In this document: positions 44,557 to 63,359 of the stretch, one piece after another
Position numbering within the stretch: the stretch's first letter is position 1
Layout: each line of letters starts with the position of its first letter
Origin: Baekduia alba
GTDB taxonomy: Bacteria; Actinomycetota; Thermoleophilia; Solirubrobacterales; Solirubrobacteraceae
DNA: 64,000 bases
Direction: 5' to 3'
Assembly: GCF_028416635.1 (NCBI RefSeq)
Contig: NZ_CP114013.1
Coordinates: 186,001 to 250,000 of the forward strand
The notes under the pieces: model-generated
Database searches by the model: none
Seen by the model: only the letters and a program-made list of their open reading frames with translations
Told to the model about the DNA's origin: nothing
Position numbers and translations under genes: made by a program

Positions 44557-44640
44557 TGGAGCTGGGGGACTCCAACCCTCGACCTCCTGGGTGCGAGACA
44601 CGAAGCCTGCGCGGCAGAAGTTGTCGATTGGCAGGGGCTT
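44557..44640 (-). repeat. tRNA-Ala-3'-end-like repeat, copy C (short)
   Basis: Minus strand 44589-44557 matches the T-arm/acceptor of tRNA-Ala with a mutated T-loop. It shares with copy A the next stretch (GGTGCGA then ACGAAGCCTGCGCG) to about 44640, but not the hairpin. It lies 60 bases after the FAD oxidoreductase stop. Confidence 0.65.
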
Positions 44641-45894: not shown

Positions 45895-46342
45895 CGGCAC
45901 ATCCAACCACCTGAGAACGCCTTCGAGCGCGATCCCCACGCCGGCCCGTGGCCCGAAGTGCTCACCGAGCGAATCGTCGAAGGCACCGTCCGTCCGTCAT
46001 CACCGCCGTCTCCAGCGCCCGCCTGGTCATCGCCACGCGAGCGGGCCGCCCGACCGACCTCTGGCAGCGCCTCGCCGATCACCTCGAGACCGTGCTCCCG
46101 CGCCTGGCCGACTGGTCGCCGACCGCGTCGGCGCCCCGGGCGCTGGGCGCGACGACCGAACCGCGACCAATCGGCGGCTATCCACGGGTAACTCCAGGTC
46201 GACGTGGTCCCAAATACGTCATATTAGCGATTACTCAGACAAATAGCTAAAAAATAATGCGAGCCGAACCGGGCTGCGCGGGCGGGATGCTCGTTGAACG
46301 CTTGAAATCTCGTCGTCTTGTGCGGTTCCTGCCAAAGGCGAC
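45895..46342. other. 450-base gap with AT-rich segment
   Basis: No gene is supported. Bases about 46205-46260 are strikingly AT-rich for this genome (ending CTAAAAAATAATG), which suggests promoter or recently acquired DNA. Confidence 0.45.
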
Positions 46343-46387
46343 GTTCCGGCGGCGAGTCGGCCAACAGGGCCGAGTCGCCGCCGGAAC
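46343..46387 (-). terminator. Large hairpin after the ATP-grasp gene
   Basis: 13-base perfect arms GTTCCGGCGGCGA and TCGCCGCCGGAAC enclose a second small stem (CGGCC/GGCCG). It lies 25 bases past the ATP-grasp stop on the minus strand; no T-run. Confidence 0.6.
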
Positions 46388-46411
46388 GCCTGCGGCGTTG
46401 CTCCGGTGCGC

Positions 46412-47446
46412 TTACGGGACGAGGATCGATGTCCCGACCACGGCGATCCGTCCGCTCAGGTCAGGCTGGCGGAGCGAGCCGGCGTCGCCGGTGGTCGCCA
46501 GCTTGAGCGCCGACCAGGGCAGGTTCAGCCCGGTGTGCCCCGTGTGGGCCACGCCGGCCGAGACCCTCGCGTTGACCTCCAGCAGCTTGGGTTCGTCGCC
46601 CTCCCAGCGCACTTGCACGTTGCTCAGGTAGGCCAGAGGCAGCCCCTCGACCAGGGCGCGCGCGATGCCGATCAGCCGGGGGTCGTCGGCGAAGGTGCGG
46701 TACGGGTCGCCCTTGACGCGCGCGACCGACATCAGCAGGCGGCCGTCGGTCGTGGAGAGGCAATCGATGCTGACCTCCGGCTCCTCGAGGAAGGGCATCA
46801 CGATCAGCTCCGGCAGGAGCCGACCCTGCTCTTCTGCCTGCCGCAGAGCGCGCTCGTAGGCGGCGGCGCTGATGAGCGGCTTGGGGGCCGCCAGCAGTTC
46901 GACCAGCCCATGCTCGGCGTCGTAGAGCTCGCGGAAGCCATCCGCCGACCAGCCCGACCAGCTCGTGTCCGGCTTGACGCACGCCCGACGGCCACCGCGG
47001 CGCACGTGGGCGACCGCCGCCGCGAATGCGTCGGCCGAGGAGACCTTGTGCCACTCGGGCACCGCGACCCCGAGGGCCAGCGCTGCCGCGTAGGTGCCGG
47101 ACTTCGAGTCGGTGATGGATGCCACCCGTCGGTCGACGCTCGCCATCAGAACGCAGCCGGCCTCGGCGAAGTCCTGGGCGCGAGAGGCCAGGGCGACGAT
47201 CCGGCAGGTCGGGATCAGGACGTCGATCTCGTGGCGCCGGACGTAGTCGAGCGCGAATGCCGCGTACTGCTTGTCGGTGGCGTCCCAGTCGGGCTCGGAG
47301 CCGCGGACGTCGGCGAACGCCAGGGCGGGGCCGTCGCCTCCCGGCCGGGTGGCGTGGATCTCGAGGGGGGTGCGGTCCGGGTTGTCGCGCAGCATCGCGA
47401 TCACGGCGGTCTTGGATAGGCCGGCCCGGTTGATCCAGATCTTCAT
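46412..47446 (-). CDS. ATP-grasp domain protein (carbamoyl-phosphate-synthase/PylC-like)
   Basis: 344 residues. N-terminal Rossmann-like WINRAGLSKTAVIAML, central DSKSGTYAAALALGVAVP, the ATP-grasp nucleotide region ACVKPDTSWSGWS, LIVMPFLEEPEVSIDCL and the metal/phosphate site LLEVNARVSAGVAH. Such ligases couple carboxylates to amines at the cost of ATP; some modify ribosomal peptides. ATG 47446 has AAGGAC upstream; TGA of a short upstream frame overlaps it. Its substrate is unknown; the nearby tiny genes make a peptide substrate possible. Confidence 0.85.
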   Translation of the reverse strand: MKIWINRAGLSKTAVIAMLRDNPDRTPLEIHATRPGGDGPALAFADVRGSEPDWDATDKQYAAFALDYVRRHEIDVLIPTCRIVALASRAQDFAEAGCVLMASVDRRVASITDSKSGTYAAALALGVAVPEWHKVSSADAFAAAVAHVRRGGRRACVKPDTSWSGWSADGFRELYDAEHGLVELLAAPKPLISAAAYERALRQAEEQGRLLPELIVMPFLEEPEVSIDCLSTTDGRLLMSVARVKGDPYRTFADDPRLIGIARALVEGLPLAYLSNVQVRWEGDEPKLLEVNARVSAGVAHTGHTGLNLPWSALKLATTGDAGSLRQPDLSGRIAVVGTSILVP

Positions 47447-48908
47447 GTTCTTGTCCTTCGACAGTCGAGACACGGGCGCCGGTGGGCGGCCCGTGGAAGG
47501 CTCGTGCTGAGCACTTCGTCGGCGCCTTCCCCCGGGATGCGGGAGAAGGCGTCGCCGCTGGGCTCAGAAGCAGGGCTTGGGGGGACGGTGGGTGATGCGA
47601 TCGCCCTGGCGAGCGGCAGGACGGCAAGGCCGGTGGACGCCGAGTGCGCTTCGTCGACGACGACCGACAGGCCGCTTATCCCCCGTCAGGGTCGTCAGCA
47701 GCTCGGCGAGGGACGGTGCTCGTCGCCGCTGGGCGCCCAAAGCGTGCATCGGCAGGAACCGTCAGGCGTGATGTTGCCCGAGGGCCGTCGCATCGAACGC
47801 GTCTGGATGCCGAGCTGTTCATGAAGGCGCTCCGTCCGTGGAGACCAGATGTGGTGCGCGGGTGCGCGGTGGATGCTGCTGAGAAAAAGAGGCGAAGAAG
47901 GTGCGTCGCAGGCTACGCGGGGCCCGGCGCCGGGCCAAATCGCGCTTCGCCAGACCGTTGGGCGAAGCCGCCGCCCGCTGACCGAGGGCCACTTCGACGC
48001 ACCCGACGACCGCCCGAACGGATTCGACGAAGCCTCGGGCCGGCATCGGGCTCCCCACGAAGCGGGGTTTCTCCCGAGTGGAGCTAGTAGCTGGGCAGTC
48101 GGGCGCTCACACCGACTGGTCGGAGCCCGCAGCGCCGCGGTCGGCGCCGCGTGGGGTGAGCATGTGCTCGAGGATCCCCGACGGGCTCGACGAGCGCTTC
48201 GTGGCGCTGCGTAGCGTGGTTCAAGGCCCTCCGGGCCGGTATGCGGCTGCCGCGCGACGTTGACGAGACGGCCGATTGACCGCGGGGCGGGAACGTTGCG
48301 CTAGGCACCACCCTGGAGCGTCATTCGCGCGCGGGTCCGTCCTCGGTCGCGGCGAGTTCGTCGACTTCCGGGTCGCCAACGTGCGGCACATCGGTGTCGA
48401 CGCTGTGGCGAGCAGGTACTTCTCACGCCCCTCGCCGGCCGGACCCACCATCCCTGGGTGGCGCCGGGATCGAACCGGCGCACGCGCGGCAGGTGCTGCG
48501 TCCGGCGGCGGGAACGCCGTGAGGTGGGCGTGTTGTCGGCGAGCAACCGCCCGCATCGGCCTGCCTAGCGGATCGTGTAGCGTCTGCCGCTCTCTCTTTC
48601 GACGTTCTCTTTACCGCAGCACCTCTTCTTCCCGGCGTCATCAACGCGCGCCGGACGCGAACCAAGATCTCTCTGCTTTTCGAGCGACCAGGCGTCGCTC
48701 CGGCCAGTCACGGCTCCCCACGCGAGCTGTCCGGTTCGACGAGGGGCAACCGGCCGATCGACGAAGCCGTTGCGCAGCCGATCCGCGCGATGCGAGAGCA
48801 GACGTGCAGGTCGAACGCAGGTCGTCGAGGCGACCGCGAGTTCTCGATCCCGGCCGTAGAGCTCGGACCGATCGGCGCGAGAAGCGCCTGCTGAAGGAGT
48901 GATTCGCA
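47447..48908. other. 1.46-kb region without a supported gene
   Basis: Between the divergent ATP-grasp and small-peptide genes. A minus-strand frame (47700-47445, VVVDEAHSASTGLAVLPLA) ends in ATGA overlap with the ATP-grasp start, a possible small precursor or remnant. At 48458-48482 is a tRNA-like T-arm (GGCGCCGGGATCGAACCGGC) without the rest of a tRNA. Remnants of old genes are likely. Confidence 0.4.
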
Positions 48909-49025
48909 ATGGCGATATCGGAAGAATGTTCGAATAGCAGGCACAACTGGTGCCAGGACACCAGTTGCCCCTGCTACTGCCACAGCACCACTCGGGTGGT
49001 GCCGGCGCTGCTCGTGCTGCGCTGA
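48909..49025 (+). CDS. Cys-rich 38-residue peptide, possible RiPP precursor
   Basis: ATG 48909 has AAGGAG 9 bases upstream. The peptide contains five cysteines at positions 7, 15, 20, 22 and 24 (NWCQDTSCPCYC), then a Thr/Val/Leu tail VVPALLVLR. The sequence after the start site of its ribosome-binding region (GGAGTGATTCGCAATG) resembles that of the next small gene. Could be a modified peptide or a metal-binding peptide. No family recognised. Confidence 0.4.
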   Translation: MAISEECSNSRHNWCQDTSCPCYCHSTTRVVPALLVLR

Positions 49026-49299
49026 CCTCGACCGTCGGTCGGGCGACCACGGCCGCATGACCGTTCGCGGACGTGCCTGGCTGACGCGTGATAGCGGGCA
49101 CTCTGGACGGCGCGACGGCGCGCCGCCCAGGGTGTCCCGTCCTTGCTGGGCCCCCTGGCGAACGATCTCGCACGTCGCTCTGAGCGCAGCGGCGACGTCT
49201 TCACCACCCGTTGGTGTGGAGGCGGCGACGAAGTGCTCAGCTGCTGAGCTCTTCCGCACGAAGCCCGCCCCGGGCGTCGCGCGCGCACCCCGAGATGAG

Positions 49300-49305
49300 A
49301 GGAGG
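49300..49305 (+). promoter_or_regulatory. Very strong ribosome-binding site AGGAGG(TGA)
   Basis: AGGAGGTGA complements the 16S 3' end over nine bases, 9 bases before ATG 49315. It is the best in the window and decides the start of this tiny gene. Confidence 0.7.
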
Positions 49306-49314
49306 TGAACTCGC

Positions 49315-49434
49315 ATGGCTGAGGAGCCTGAGCCCGTCGAACCGGCCGAAGACACGTCGACCGCCGAGGCCGACGCGCTGCCGACGCAGTCCGACATGGA
49401 TCTGCCCCTGCAGGGCCCGCAGTTCCAGCGCTAG
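49315..49434 (+). CDS. Acidic 39-residue peptide, possible RiPP precursor
   Basis: Thirty-nine residues with an acidic, Glu/Pro-rich leader-like N-terminus (MAEEPEPVEPAEDTSTAEAD) and a different C-terminal part DMDLPLQGPQFQR. The near-perfect ribosome-binding site and a hairpin terminator 72 bases after the stop show that it is an independent expressed gene. Next on the strand is a broken ABC exporter ATPase and an MFS exporter, so a secreted or modified peptide is plausible. No family recognised. Confidence 0.5.
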   Translation: MAEEPEPVEPAEDTSTAEADALPTQSDMDLPLQGPQFQR

Positions 49435-49506
49435 GTGCATAAGCGCCACGGACCCGCCGCTGACCGGCGGTGTCTGCACGGCGTCAGACAGGAGGTGAGG
49501 GTCGAC

Positions 49507-49534
49507 GGCTCGGGCGCTCAACGGCGCCCGAGCC
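49507..49534 (+). terminator. Hairpin terminator after the peptide gene
   Basis: 11-base perfect stem GGCTCGGGCGC / GCGCCCGAGCC with a 6-base loop, then CTTCGTTGT. A second AGGAGGTGA lies just before it (49490-49498) but is followed by no supported gene. Confidence 0.65.
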
Positions 49535-49797
49535 CTTCGTTGTACTCAGCCGATCATCGGCGGAGATGTGATCTCTTCGGAAGCGGGCTTCCTCGGGACG
49601 CGTGACATGCGCCCCTGGGCAGCCCGCTCCCCTTGGCGAGGCCCGGTTCCGCGACGTCTGAGCGTGCCTGCAACGCCCCACCACGTTGTGAGGCGATGCA
49701 CGAGGCGCTCAGGCCTCATCGCCACCGGGACGGATTCCCGGAGCTTCCCGATGTGAGGTGGCCCTCAGCGGCGACGAGAGCCTCTTGGCTCGAGCGC

Positions 49798-50358
49798 GGT
49801 GCCGCGACGCTCGACGGGGTGCCGATCAGCACGCTCAACGTCGAGGAACTGCGCGCGGCGCTCGTACGCATCCCGCAGACCTCGTGGGTCCCAGAGACGA
49901 CCGTCCGGACCGGCCTCCTACCCGGGCCCGGCATGAGCGACGCCGACCTCGAGTAGGCGTGCACGCTGGCCGGCGTGCACGAGCAGATCCTCGATTGGCC
50001 CGCCGGCTACGACACCGTGCTCGATCCGACCACGCTCTCGGGCGGCCAGATGCAGCGCCTGACGGTCTCCCGCGCGCTGCTGCGCACGCTCAGCGGGGCC
50101 GCGCGCATGATGCTGCTCGACGAGATCACCGCGCCGCTCGACGCCGTGTCGGCCGAGCGACTCCTGGAGGACGTGCTCTCCTACCTCGCCGAGAAGGGGA
50201 TCGGCGCTCTGATCATCGCGCACAAGCTGCCGGTCCACGCCCGCGTCCAGCGCGTGCTCGTGATCGACAAGGGCCGGGTGGTCGAGGACGGCGACCCGCG
50301 GACACTGGCGGCCAACCCCCGCACCCACTACGCCCGGATGTTCCGCGCCGGCCACTAG
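49798..50358 (+). pseudogene. ABC exporter ATPase remnant with in-frame stop
   Basis: One frame reads the second two thirds of an exporter ATPase: ATLDGVPISTLNVEELRAAL, Q-loop RIPQTSW, signature TLSGGQMQRLTVSRALL, Walker B RMMLLDEITAPLD, H-loop LIIAHKLPVHARV. TAG at 49954-49956 interrupts it where a Glu is expected (GAG to TAG), and Walker A and the membrane domain are missing. It resembles ATPases of bacteriocin/lantibiotic exporters, supporting a decayed peptide locus. Confidence 0.75.
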
Positions 50359-50423
50359 CGCGACCGCATCGCGTCAGCGCGCGTCCCAGGAGGGGACGCG
50401 CCGCTCACCTCAATGGAGGAAAG

Positions 50424-51713
50424 ATGGAACCGAAGCACAGGCCCAAGCCGTCGGCGGGCCTGCGCGTGACGTTCGCGTCGCTGCGCGAACGCAACATCCG
50501 CGCCTGGCTCCTGGCCCGGGTGCTCAGGTACACCGCCTGGAAGATGTCGGCCGTCGCCGACGTGTGGTGGATCGCCACACACACCGGTAGCGGACTATGG
50601 GTCAGCGCAGTGGTCGCCGCCCTGTGGCTGCCGGGCCCGTTCCTGGCGTCCGCGGCGGGGCGACTCGCGGACCAGCCCGGTGCGCAGCGGCGGATCGTGC
50701 GCGTGGGGATCCTGCGAGCCGTGATCGCGACGGTCACGCTCGGCATCGTCGCGACCGGCTCGGCCGCGGCGTGGCTGCTCGCCGCGCTCGCGCTCGGGCG
50801 CGGCGTCGTCGACGCCCGGTGGGGACCGATCGAGTCGATCTTCCTACGGGAGGTCGCCGAAGGGGACGGCGATCGCATCCAGGTGCTCGCTGGGCTTGAG
50901 AAGATCGCCTACTACGTGGCGCTGATCCTCGGTCCGGCGGCCGTCGGGGGCCTCTTCGCGGCCTCCGGATTCGCGCTGTGCCTCGGCGTCGTGGTCATCG
51001 CGATCGGGCTGGCGACCGTCCTCAGCGGACCGCGGATCATCGTGTTGGACGCGGCGCCCGCCGTCGCCCCAACACCGCCCGACGACGAGCGCCGACCGGA
51101 CGTCGGGCGCCTGTGGTCGCTCCAGTCGTGGCGAGACCTGCTGGCGCCGCTGCGATCGCGACCGGAAGGCTGGATCCCGCTGGCCATCGGGGAGACGGTG
51201 AACGCAATGGGAGCGAACTTCGTCATCTGGTCGCCCCTGCTGGTCACGAGCGCCTGGCACGGAGCCGAGGGTGACCTGACCCTGCTCCAGATCGCCAACG
51301 GCGTAGGCATGCTCGCCGGCGGCACGGTCATCGCGGCCGTCGGGCGGCCCTCGGAATGGCTGGTCGTGGCAGCGGCGGCCTGGTGGGGCGCGTGGGAGCT
51401 CGTGCTTGCGGCGGCCGGCGGGCTGCCGTTGGCGTTGACGGCCCTGACGCTGACCGGGATGGGCGCGGGGGCGCTGTGGTCGGCCCTCAGCAGGCAACTG
51501 CTGGCGGTCACGCACGCCGGGATCGGCCGCGTCAGGGCGCTGCAGGGCGCGATCAGCGGGAGCGTCTTCTGGGTGGGCAGCCTGCTCACGGGCGCGCTCA
51601 TCGACCTCCAGGGGCCGCGAGCGGCCGTCTGGTTCGACGCGGGCGTTGCCGCGGTCGCCGCGATCGCCGGCGCCGTCGCCCTGCTCATCCACCGCACGCG
51701 CCGCGCCGTGTGA
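50424..51713 (+). CDS. MFS transporter (enterobactin-exporter-like fold)
   Basis: 429 residues with about 12 membrane spans. N-terminal RNIRAWLLARVLRYTAWKMS, the loop GRLADQPGAQRRIVRVGI, the second half start IGETVNAMGANFVIWSPLLV. GGAGGAAAG precedes ATG 50424; no obvious start upstream. Exports a small molecule or peptide; the neighbouring tiny genes and ABC remnant suggest self-protection or peptide export. Substrate unknown. Confidence 0.83.
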   Translation: MEPKHRPKPSAGLRVTFASLRERNIRAWLLARVLRYTAWKMSAVADVWWIATHTGSGLWVSAVVAALWLPGPFLASAAGRLADQPGAQRRIVRVGILRAVIATVTLGIVATGSAAAWLLAALALGRGVVDARWGPIESIFLREVAEGDGDRIQVLAGLEKIAYYVALILGPAAVGGLFAASGFALCLGVVVIAIGLATVLSGPRIIVLDAAPAVAPTPPDDERRPDVGRLWSLQSWRDLLAPLRSRPEGWIPLAIGETVNAMGANFVIWSPLLVTSAWHGAEGDLTLLQIANGVGMLAGGTVIAAVGRPSEWLVVAAAAWWGAWELVLAAAGGLPLALTALTLTGMGAGALWSALSRQLLAVTHAGIGRVRALQGAISGSVFWVGSLLTGALIDLQGPRAAVWFDAGVAAVAAIAGAVALLIHRTRRAV

Positions 51714-51784
51714 TTGACCACCGCGAGCAAGCCACGCGCCGTGCGCACCACACCGCGCGCAACACCAACATGGAGGACAAGCTC

Positions 51785-52032
51785 ATGTCGATCGAACCCA
51801 CCGACTTCGGCACACCGGATGAGACCCGAGTTGCGATCCAGCACTACCTCAAAACGGCCGGCTACCCCGTCCACCTCGGCTCCACGATCGTCGAGCACGA
51901 CGGCGACCCCGGCGGGTTCGGGTCACCCGGATCAGCGTCCGCGTCGTGAACCCCGAGCACGCAGCGCGCGTCAAGGAGCTCCTTGACGAGTTGGCCGACA
52001 AGACCCAGGTCATGATCTCGGTCAGCCACTGA
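51785..52032 (+). pseudogene. Small protein gene with apparent frameshift
   Basis: From ATG 51785 the frame reads SIEPTDFGTPDETRVAIQHY, then LKTAGYPVHLGSTIVEHDGD and stops at 51947-51949. A second frame continues with coherent protein: VTRISVRVVNPEHAARVKEL, then LDELADKTQVMISVSH and TGA 52030-52032. Together they look like one protein of about 80 residues broken by a one-base shift near 51910-51925. Sequencing error, programmed shift or decay are all possible. Confidence 0.5.
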
Positions 52033-52038
52033 CGTGTG

Positions 52039-52071
52039 CGCCGTCGACCCCACCGGGCGGGGTCGACGGCG
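52039..52071 (+). terminator. 13-base hairpin
   Basis: CGCCGTCGACCCC / GGGGTCGACGGCG around ACCGGGC, 7 bases after the small-protein stop. Confidence 0.6.
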
Positions 52072-52086
52072 CGCCGGCTCCTCCTC

Positions 52087-52117
52087 GACGGCGCCGCGCG
52101 CGCCGTCTTTCTTTTTG
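52087..52117 (+). terminator. Rho-independent terminator
   Basis: Stem GACGGCGC / GCGCCGTC with a 5-base loop, followed by TTTCTTTTTG. Classic T-run; closes the possible peptide locus. Confidence 0.85.
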
Positions 52118-60269: not shown

Positions 60270-60518
60270 GGCGCGACGCTACCAGCCCGCCTCGCCGGCC
60301 CGGCACCGTCAAGCGGCCAGGTCGCCGGCGGTGCTCTCCGAAGCGCGCCGCCTCGACACCGCGGTGCATGCTCTTGAAGCGCGACATCGCCACGGAGATC
60401 ACACTGCCCTCGCTGGGCTGGTCCGCGCGCTCGAGGCACCGGCCACCATGCACCTGCGCTACCGAGTGGTCAGAGGATGAGCGGAGACGCGCGGCGGCTT
60501 GCGGGGGCTTCGACCGAG

Positions 60519-60551
60519 TGGAGCTAGGGGGACTCGAACCGCCGACCTCTG
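60519..60551 (-). repeat. tRNA-Ala-3'-end-like repeat, copy D (short)
   Basis: TGGAGCTAGGGGGACTCGAA, then CCGCCGACCTC, on the plus strand equals the reverse complement of the T-arm and acceptor of tRNA-Ala. Left-flank GCGGGGGCTTCG is shared with copy A. It lies 56 bases after the flavodoxin stop. The rest of the 338-base gap 60270-60607 holds no gene. Confidence 0.65.
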
Positions 60552-63181: not shown

Positions 63182-63359
63182 TGGAGCTAGGGGACTCGAA
63201 CCCCGACCTCCTGGGTGCGATGTACGAAGCCTGCGCGTCCGGACACCATCATTTGCAGGACTTTCAGAGGCGCTCGTCGGTACTCGAGGAGCGGCGGATT
63301 GCCGCAGATTTGCGACGCTTCTCGGGGTTCCAGGCACTCGCGGCATTCCAGTGCCTGGA
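63182..63359 (-). repeat. tRNA-Ala-3'-end-like repeat with hairpin, copy A
   Basis: Minus strand 63213-63182 reads CAGGAGGTCGGGGTTCGAGT, then CCCCTAGCTCCA: anticodon-stem end, T-arm and acceptor of tRNA-Ala, the best preserved of four copies. On the 3' side a terminator-like hairpin (CGAAGCCCC/GGGGGTTTCG, about 63148-63175) follows. The element side matches copy B to the hairpin TCCAGGCACT/AGTGCCTGGA (63329-63338, 63350-63359). Confidence 0.7.

Follow-up and report, generated by a model that had tools for sequence, protein, structure and literature searches.

Positions 46,412 to 52,117 of the window, the 64,000-nucleotide stretch of Baekduia alba DNA analyzed here (genome coordinates G000:C1:186001-250000 of a single-contig 5.86-Mb genome), hold two short open reading frames (ORFs), pep1 and pep2, beside a divergent ATP-grasp gene and exporter genes. 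The pep2 unit, comprising a hairpin leader, a Shine-Dalgarno (SD) sequence, a 39-amino-acid (aa) ORF, and a terminator, is the best-kept part of a duplication whose other copy lies about 22 kb away. Our preferred reading, to which we give a little less than even credence, is that the locus is a decayed remnant of a small pep2-centered cluster within a tRNA-Ala island and that the second copy is a related decayed remnant sharing the structured leader. The first-pass annotation had proposed a partly broken ribosomal-peptide cluster. The decay and the recurrence of pep2 with its leader and terminator agree with that proposal; the roles given to pep1, as a live cysteine-rich precursor, and to the ATP-grasp protein, as the enzyme modifying the peptides, were not supported. 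An open-access literature search, within the terms used, returned nothing on this locus type, and the sole paper naming the ATP-grasp family PF15632 was an Escherichia coli pangenome study.

The pep1-pep2 stretch and its second copy

Both small genes are present as first described, and each is followed by a hairpin (window coordinates):

48909..49025, plus strand: pep1, 38 aa with five Cys, drifting; two indels, of 3 bases and 1 base, separate it from the second copy
49086..49150, plus strand: GC-rich inverted repeat after pep1, with a hairpin recognized by reading the sequence; 8 substitutions between the copies over 64 aligned bases
49315..49434, plus strand: pep2, 39-aa peptide with an acidic start and the strongest SD sequence of the region; 79% identical copy at G000:C1:256940-257056, minus strand
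49507..49534, plus strand: terminator-like hairpin after pep2; 30 of 30 columns (49506-49535) identical in the second copy

The stretch from pep1 through the leader and pep2 to the terminator recurs within the genome over 672 aligned columns at 82.9% identity, which exceeds chance. The second pair is on the minus strand (pep1′, 257365-257448; pep2′, 256940-257056 in genome coordinates), with the same order and similar spacing; pep1′ is 68% identical over pep1 residues 2 to 30 (29 residues), and pep2′ is 79% identical over the whole of pep2. Conservation between the copies is uneven. Substitutions amount to 7/100 (7.0%) in the leader, 10/120 (8.3%) without any indel in pep2, and 0/30 in the terminator, compared with 19/110 (17.3%) plus 4 gap columns, one of the indels shifting the frame, in pep1, 12/55 (21.8%) plus 8 gap columns in the stretch after pep1, 9/50 (18.0%) plus 21 gap columns in the stretch after pep2, and 22/55 (40%) plus 7 gap columns beyond the terminator. 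The inverted repeat after pep1 adds 4 gap columns to its 8 substitutions.

The claim that the two genes have the best ribosome-binding sites is right for pep2 and approximately so for pep1, because their anti-Shine-Dalgarno pairing energies (−12.6 and −7.6 kcal/mol) rank first and fifth among the 81 ORFs of at least 30 aa with ATG or GTG starts between 44501 and 52200. The GC content by codon position of pep2 (0.79/0.46/0.87) resembles that of the ATP-grasp gene (0.71/0.51/0.93) and of the downstream transporter gene of the major facilitator superfamily (MFS), while that of pep1 (0.47/0.55/0.82) is unlike both. Terminator-like sites numbered three, the one after pep2 among them, against 1.5 expected in shuffled sequences.

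As a live precursor pep1 fares poorly: it diverges like its spacers, and the 1-base indel reframes its C terminus in the second copy. A lantibiotic- or knottin-like peptide was considered and rejected, as the match to Toxin_35 (PF10530, ICK/knottin) scored 19.7 bits, below the cutoff of 26.8, and the C terminus differs from that of the second copy. Nor do we claim that the longer pep1 frame of the second copy (53 aa, with more Cys) is ancestral; identity there is close to the drift level by estimate, not by computation.

Searches of the genome itself and 100 genomes of the family gave convincing matches to pep1 and pep2 only in the genome itself. At E ≤ 1, pep1 matched in 51 of the 101 genomes, with a best value of 0.008 outside its own and alignments that look like chance, and pep2 matched in 9 (best outside, 0.14), the own genome being included in both counts. 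Among 374 class genomes, again with the own genome counted, pep2′ had matches in 2 at 0.05, the other being at 0.0115 and within a 1,228-codon frame, and pep1′ had matches in 17 at 0.01 (best outside, 6e-4), which were not checked individually. Phages yielded no match to pep1′ or to the 691-base stretch and plasmids none to the latter; in viral contigs, a pattern of the pep2 end matched once, in a frame of just 15 codons between stops, and a pattern of the terminator did not match.

Upstream in the second locus lie a 65-aa ORF of repeated His/Cys units (L046:12468-12662, minus strand, upstream of pep1′), an ORF that reads as lipoprotein-like in translation, and a 96-aa ORF, all three without a Pfam or PHROG match. 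Frames in this locus look broken.

The hairpin leader

Comparison of the unit starts uncovered an element lying before the ATP-grasp gene, pep2, and a remnant of an ABC exporter gene. The second locus has three further copies, including one before pep2′. The scores below are those of R1, a covariance model of the six copies:

47507..47567, minus strand: leader core copy 1, upstream of the ATP-grasp gene, followed by a 3′ hairpin; 69.7 bits, core fold z of −4.6
49180..49240, plus strand: leader core copy 2, upstream of pep2, with a small 3′ hairpin to ~49278; 94.5 bits, z of −4.2
49658..49712, plus strand: leader core copy 3, upstream of the ABC remnant; 70.0 bits, z of −4.5

The six cores (55 to 61 nucleotides when cut at the outer arms) all fold into an outer stem, a 2×2 loop, short pairs, and an end hairpin. 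The outer arms read CTGAG(C/T)NN ... G(T/C)GCTCAG, pairwise identity of the whole cores ranges from 0.53 to 0.93, and five copies have core fold z values of −4.6, −4.2, −4.5, −5.1, and −4.6. Several copies are followed by a second hairpin, with the tail clearly stabler than shuffled sequences in just two of six (z of −3.3 and −3.0). Same-strand copies are spaced 0.4 to 1.2 kb apart, and three precede the ATP-grasp gene, pep2, and pep2′, each in the orientation of its gene.

The leader was seen only at the two peptide loci of this genome. A genome scan with R1, in which 150 of 13,993 candidates were scored, recovered the six copies at 69.7 to 98.1 bits, all at these loci; the other four places listed at E ≤ 1 reached at most 23 bits, and two of them are the reverse strands of copies. 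With the own genome included in the counts, matches occurred in 13 of 146 family genomes (E ≤ 0.05) and 6 of 399 class genomes (E ≤ 0.005), and outside the own genome none had a comparable score (about 30 bits or less versus at least 69.7) under filters strict enough that weak copies can be lost. A degenerate leader pattern was found in no viral contigs and in 11 genome contigs, mostly of other phyla, with a best score of 32 bits. When 19 weak places were checked (8 family or class loci and the 11 pattern contigs), 17 lay wholly inside open frames of at least 200 codons, where chance matches to coding sequence would be expected to fall. Rfam gave no match at gathering score in the whole window; at E values up to 5 there were 3 and 5 matches, all far below their gathering scores.

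The tRNA-Ala island and neighboring genes

The locus lies between two partial copies of a tRNA gene, with a third farther along the window:

44557..44613, minus strand: tRNA-Ala 3′ fragment, att-like, left border of the locus interval; 83 to 93% identity to four other fragments and intact tRNA-Ala(CGC)
60501..60549, minus strand: following tRNA-Ala 3′ fragment, which bounds the interval on the right; 86 to 97% identity to other fragments
63182-63237: third tRNA-Ala 3′ fragment of the window

Six such fragments in one orientation (genome positions 230557, 246501, 249182, 256596, 262896, and 267370), an intact tRNA-Ala(CGC) (G000:C1:277724-277796), and both peptide loci fall within one 47-kb stretch. 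A tyrosine integrase (L047:14353-15636; PF00589, 1.4e-28) adjoins the intact tRNA gene, and no integrase was recognized among the ORFs scanned in the segment holding the window locus. The window locus sits between the first and second fragments, the second copy beside the fourth. Direct repeats of the tRNA 3′ end stand at the borders, as in islands integrated at tRNA genes. An array of tRNA 3′ ends together with an integrase is what successive insertions into a single tRNA gene would leave. The fragments thus read as a tandem accretion island, and in some copies the shared sequence continues for about 300 bases downstream of the tRNA. Elsewhere in the genome, two more tRNA-Ala 3′ ends lie 4 kb from each other (G000:C1:5461514-5465754) and may mark a further integration site of this type.

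The genes flanking the peptide ORFs were largely as the first-pass annotation had them, with a divergent ATP-grasp gene on one side and a stop-interrupted exporter ATPase, an MFS gene, and double terminators on the other:

46412..47446, minus strand: ATP-grasp ligase, PF15632 (ATPgrasp_Ter), open frame; an upstream GTG start at 47473 is possible; Pfam 9.4e-31
49758..50358, plus strand: ABC exporter remnant, C-terminal ATPase part only, with an in-frame stop
50424..51713, plus strand: open frame of 429 aa for an MFS transporter; its matches to MFS_1 and MFS_3 both fall under the Pfam cutoff
51785..52033, plus strand: small gene, apparently frameshifted; its two frames seem mutually continuous
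52040..52107, plus strand: two hairpins in a row, terminator-like, with a T run in the second

From its family, the ATP-grasp enzyme would be expected to ligate a carboxylate to an acceptor. Apart from PF15632, Pfam and NCBIfam scans, in libraries that presumably hold graspetide-ligase models, gave the protein only subthreshold PRK12767-like, PRK06849, and ATP-grasp_3 matches. In a phylum search in which up to five candidates were scored per genome, 9 of 396 genomes had a match at 1e-10: the own genome, seven of one genus (E of 1e-55 to 3e-60; 36 to 39% identity over nearly the full length), and one weaker. A plasmid of Streptomyces fungicidicus carries a 36.5% relative, the best of 1,531 plasmid records, and two of these plasmid matches had their annotated context read. 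Its similarity of 75 to 87% to the seven genome relatives suggests that the seven are Streptomyces.

At all eight of these closest-relative loci (seven genomes and one plasmid; loci L127 and L129-L135), the ATP-grasp gene is accompanied by a helix-turn-helix regulator, a small gene, a PPTase, and a metallophosphoesterase. The small gene encodes 76 to 78 aa in the five loci read; Pfam has no match for the 78-aa protein, which by eye is unlike pep1 and pep2. A relative in Deinococcus adjoins phosphoribosyltransferase, HAD, and StiP-domain genes, which we take to be the usual company of Ter operons. The leader was absent from nine loci around ATP-grasp relatives (E ≤ 0.1), and a pep2 match was absent at 0.01 from the eight of them other than the Deinococcus locus; two short matches to pep1′ in these eight (11 and 22 residues; E of 0.004 to 0.005) were taken for chance. 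The first-pass annotation would have been contradicted had homologues of the ATP-grasp gene never occurred near small peptide genes, and the loci come near to this without quite reaching it, as the Streptomyces-type neighborhoods have a conserved small gene and nothing pep2-like.

No solved relative of the ATP-grasp protein was found by sequence and no match in phages; a scan of genome contigs, which also found none, was too narrow, since the phylum search did find relatives. A single-sequence structure prediction had a mean pLDDT of 34.8 and was not used. Just past the end of the gene, at 46342-46388 of the window, lies a near-perfect 21-base inverted repeat (95% complementary), perhaps its terminator.

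The ABC gene is truncated: what remains is the part after Walker A, with readable LSGGQ-like and Walker B-like stretches and an in-frame TAG after “DADLE.” Its N terminus is missing, and a C39 domain may have been lost with it. The best NCBIfam model for 49975-50358 was MsbA_rel (2.4e-21), far below the curated cutoff. Thousands of plasmid records match the remnant, at 36 to 39% for the best listed, and are uninformative on its cluster. For the MFS protein, no relative was found in viral contigs or plasmids.

Competing explanations and known systems

If the locus is the remnant of a pep2-centered cluster, the leader would be part of the 5′ untranslated RNA and would set the expression of the units together, by attenuation, by an effect on RNA stability, or by binding a ligand or protein. 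pep2 would be translated into a short peptide that is then secreted or modified, and the MFS protein and the since inactivated ABC exporter may formerly have exported it; the ATP-grasp enzyme would share the leader and need not act on the peptide. It is possible, though we consider it doubtful, that the element is a new class of structured leader RNA, very narrow in its distribution, coregulating separate transcription units of a mobile peptide system, with pep2 founding a new family of short peptides. The candidate plan for such a class, put forward with the same reserve, is a conserved outer stem of about 8 pairs, a 2×2 loop, short inner pairs, and a varying end hairpin.

Several results speak against the preferred reading. 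R1 was built from the very six copies that it recovers, the core at 258.7 kb folds no better than shuffled sequences (z of −0.5), and the RNAalifold covariation term (+1.44) lends no support, 3 of 18 pairs being changed on both sides. The fold also depends on where the ends are set: pieces of 88 to 109 nucleotides, folded first, showed the plan in 2 of 6 copies only (z of −0.5 to −3.8), and other 3′ ends gave it in 4 of 6, with the pep2 and 258.7-kb copies favoring another fold by 1.9 and 2.9 kcal/mol. A search for sigma-70-type promoter sites gave none. Sequence flanking the leader is well kept too (2/28 plus 1 gap before; 3/34 plus 2 gaps after). pep2 and pep2′ differ at eight codons, none synonymously (10 base changes, 4/2/4 by codon position; chance of no synonymous codon in a simple neutral simulation, 0.075), a pattern that does not indicate selection on the pep2 peptide itself. 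The second locus has no ATP-grasp homologue, the gene having a single match in the genome, and no MFS or ABC gene was identified adjoining it.

Part of this evidence would also suit leftovers of island turnover, a duplicated stretch with no live function at either locus, which we regard as unlikely but the least so of the alternatives. Several genes are frameshifted or truncated, and every changed pep2 codon alters its residue. Such leftovers would not be expected to keep an unchanged terminator, a leader and pep2 that change about two- to threefold less than pep1 and the stretch behind each small ORF, or, in pep2, the best SD sequence of 81 starts. The hairpins might instead be DNA recombination sites in an array of cassettes, pep2 and its neighbors being the cassettes, rather than RNA leaders. 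A folded attC site has conserved outer arms, an unpaired spacer, inner arms, and a variable end, an anatomy that the hairpins resemble; their same-strand spacing would fit as well, as would the ABC remnant beginning directly after one. We nevertheless judge this improbable: integron R boxes read GTTRRRY and RYYYAAC, and the hairpin arms lack both; three copies face in the sense direction before genes; and the scan, which took in part of the island's ORFs, turned up no integron-type integrase.

Just as improbable is a partly broken graspetide-type cluster, in which the ATP-grasp enzyme would form ester or amide links in pep1 or pep2 and the ABC and MFS proteins would export the product. It has in its favor the layout of ligase, short ORFs, and exporters, the presence of acidic and Ser/Thr residues in pep2, and the occurrence of ABC and MFS export genes in graspetide loci according to PMC8939145. 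The ligase belongs to PF15632, and a graspetide-ligase model appeared in neither the Pfam nor the NCBIfam scan; the second peptide pair has no ligase, and the closest-ligase loci show another neighborhood in eight of eight cases. The leader signature of graspetide precursors, given as Phhx(1,2)h in PMC8939145, is absent from pep2 and pep2′ and matches pep1 once, near the C terminus. A GG site is absent from pep1, pep2, and pep2′.

Beyond what the first-pass annotation described, the locus now has a second peptide pair, an uneven pattern of conservation, a six-copy leader, tRNA-Ala fragments, and an assignment of its ligase to PF15632. If the leader is real, it would be an RNA device common to a whole small cluster, without an Rfam match and missed by protein-based cluster mining, and it would offer a handle for locating intact relatives. 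The locus also illustrates how an island at a tRNA gene can leave behind, close together, related peptide modules in decay that a single-locus view reads as one broken cluster, and it cautions that an ATP-grasp gene beside a short ORF is alone no proof of a peptide cluster.

Among known systems, graspetide (omega-ester peptide) clusters likewise place an ATP-grasp enzyme near short ORFs and exporters; their ligase family, leader signature, and GG cleavage motif were not found here, though a GG site or a C39 peptidase or exporter is frequent in them, not universal. PF15632 ligases share the domain and, in the Streptomyces-type homologues, nearly the full length, whereas the neighbors of those relatives (PPTase, metallophosphoesterase, and the 76- to 78-aa gene; or phosphoribosyltransferase, HAD, and StiP) were not identified at the window locus; we take the family to comprise a Ter-operon type besides the standalone Streptomyces type. 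Tandem-accretion islands at tRNA genes show the same repeated tRNA-Ala 3′ ends and an integrase beside the intact tRNA, and differ in that the scanned ORFs of the segment holding the window locus include no recognizable one. Cis-regulatory leaders such as riboswitches, attenuators, and antitermination elements differ from the element here, which has no Rfam match at gathering score and was found at just two loci, both in this genome; like them, it stands 5′ of several units of one cluster and combines a conserved outer stem with a variable end hairpin.

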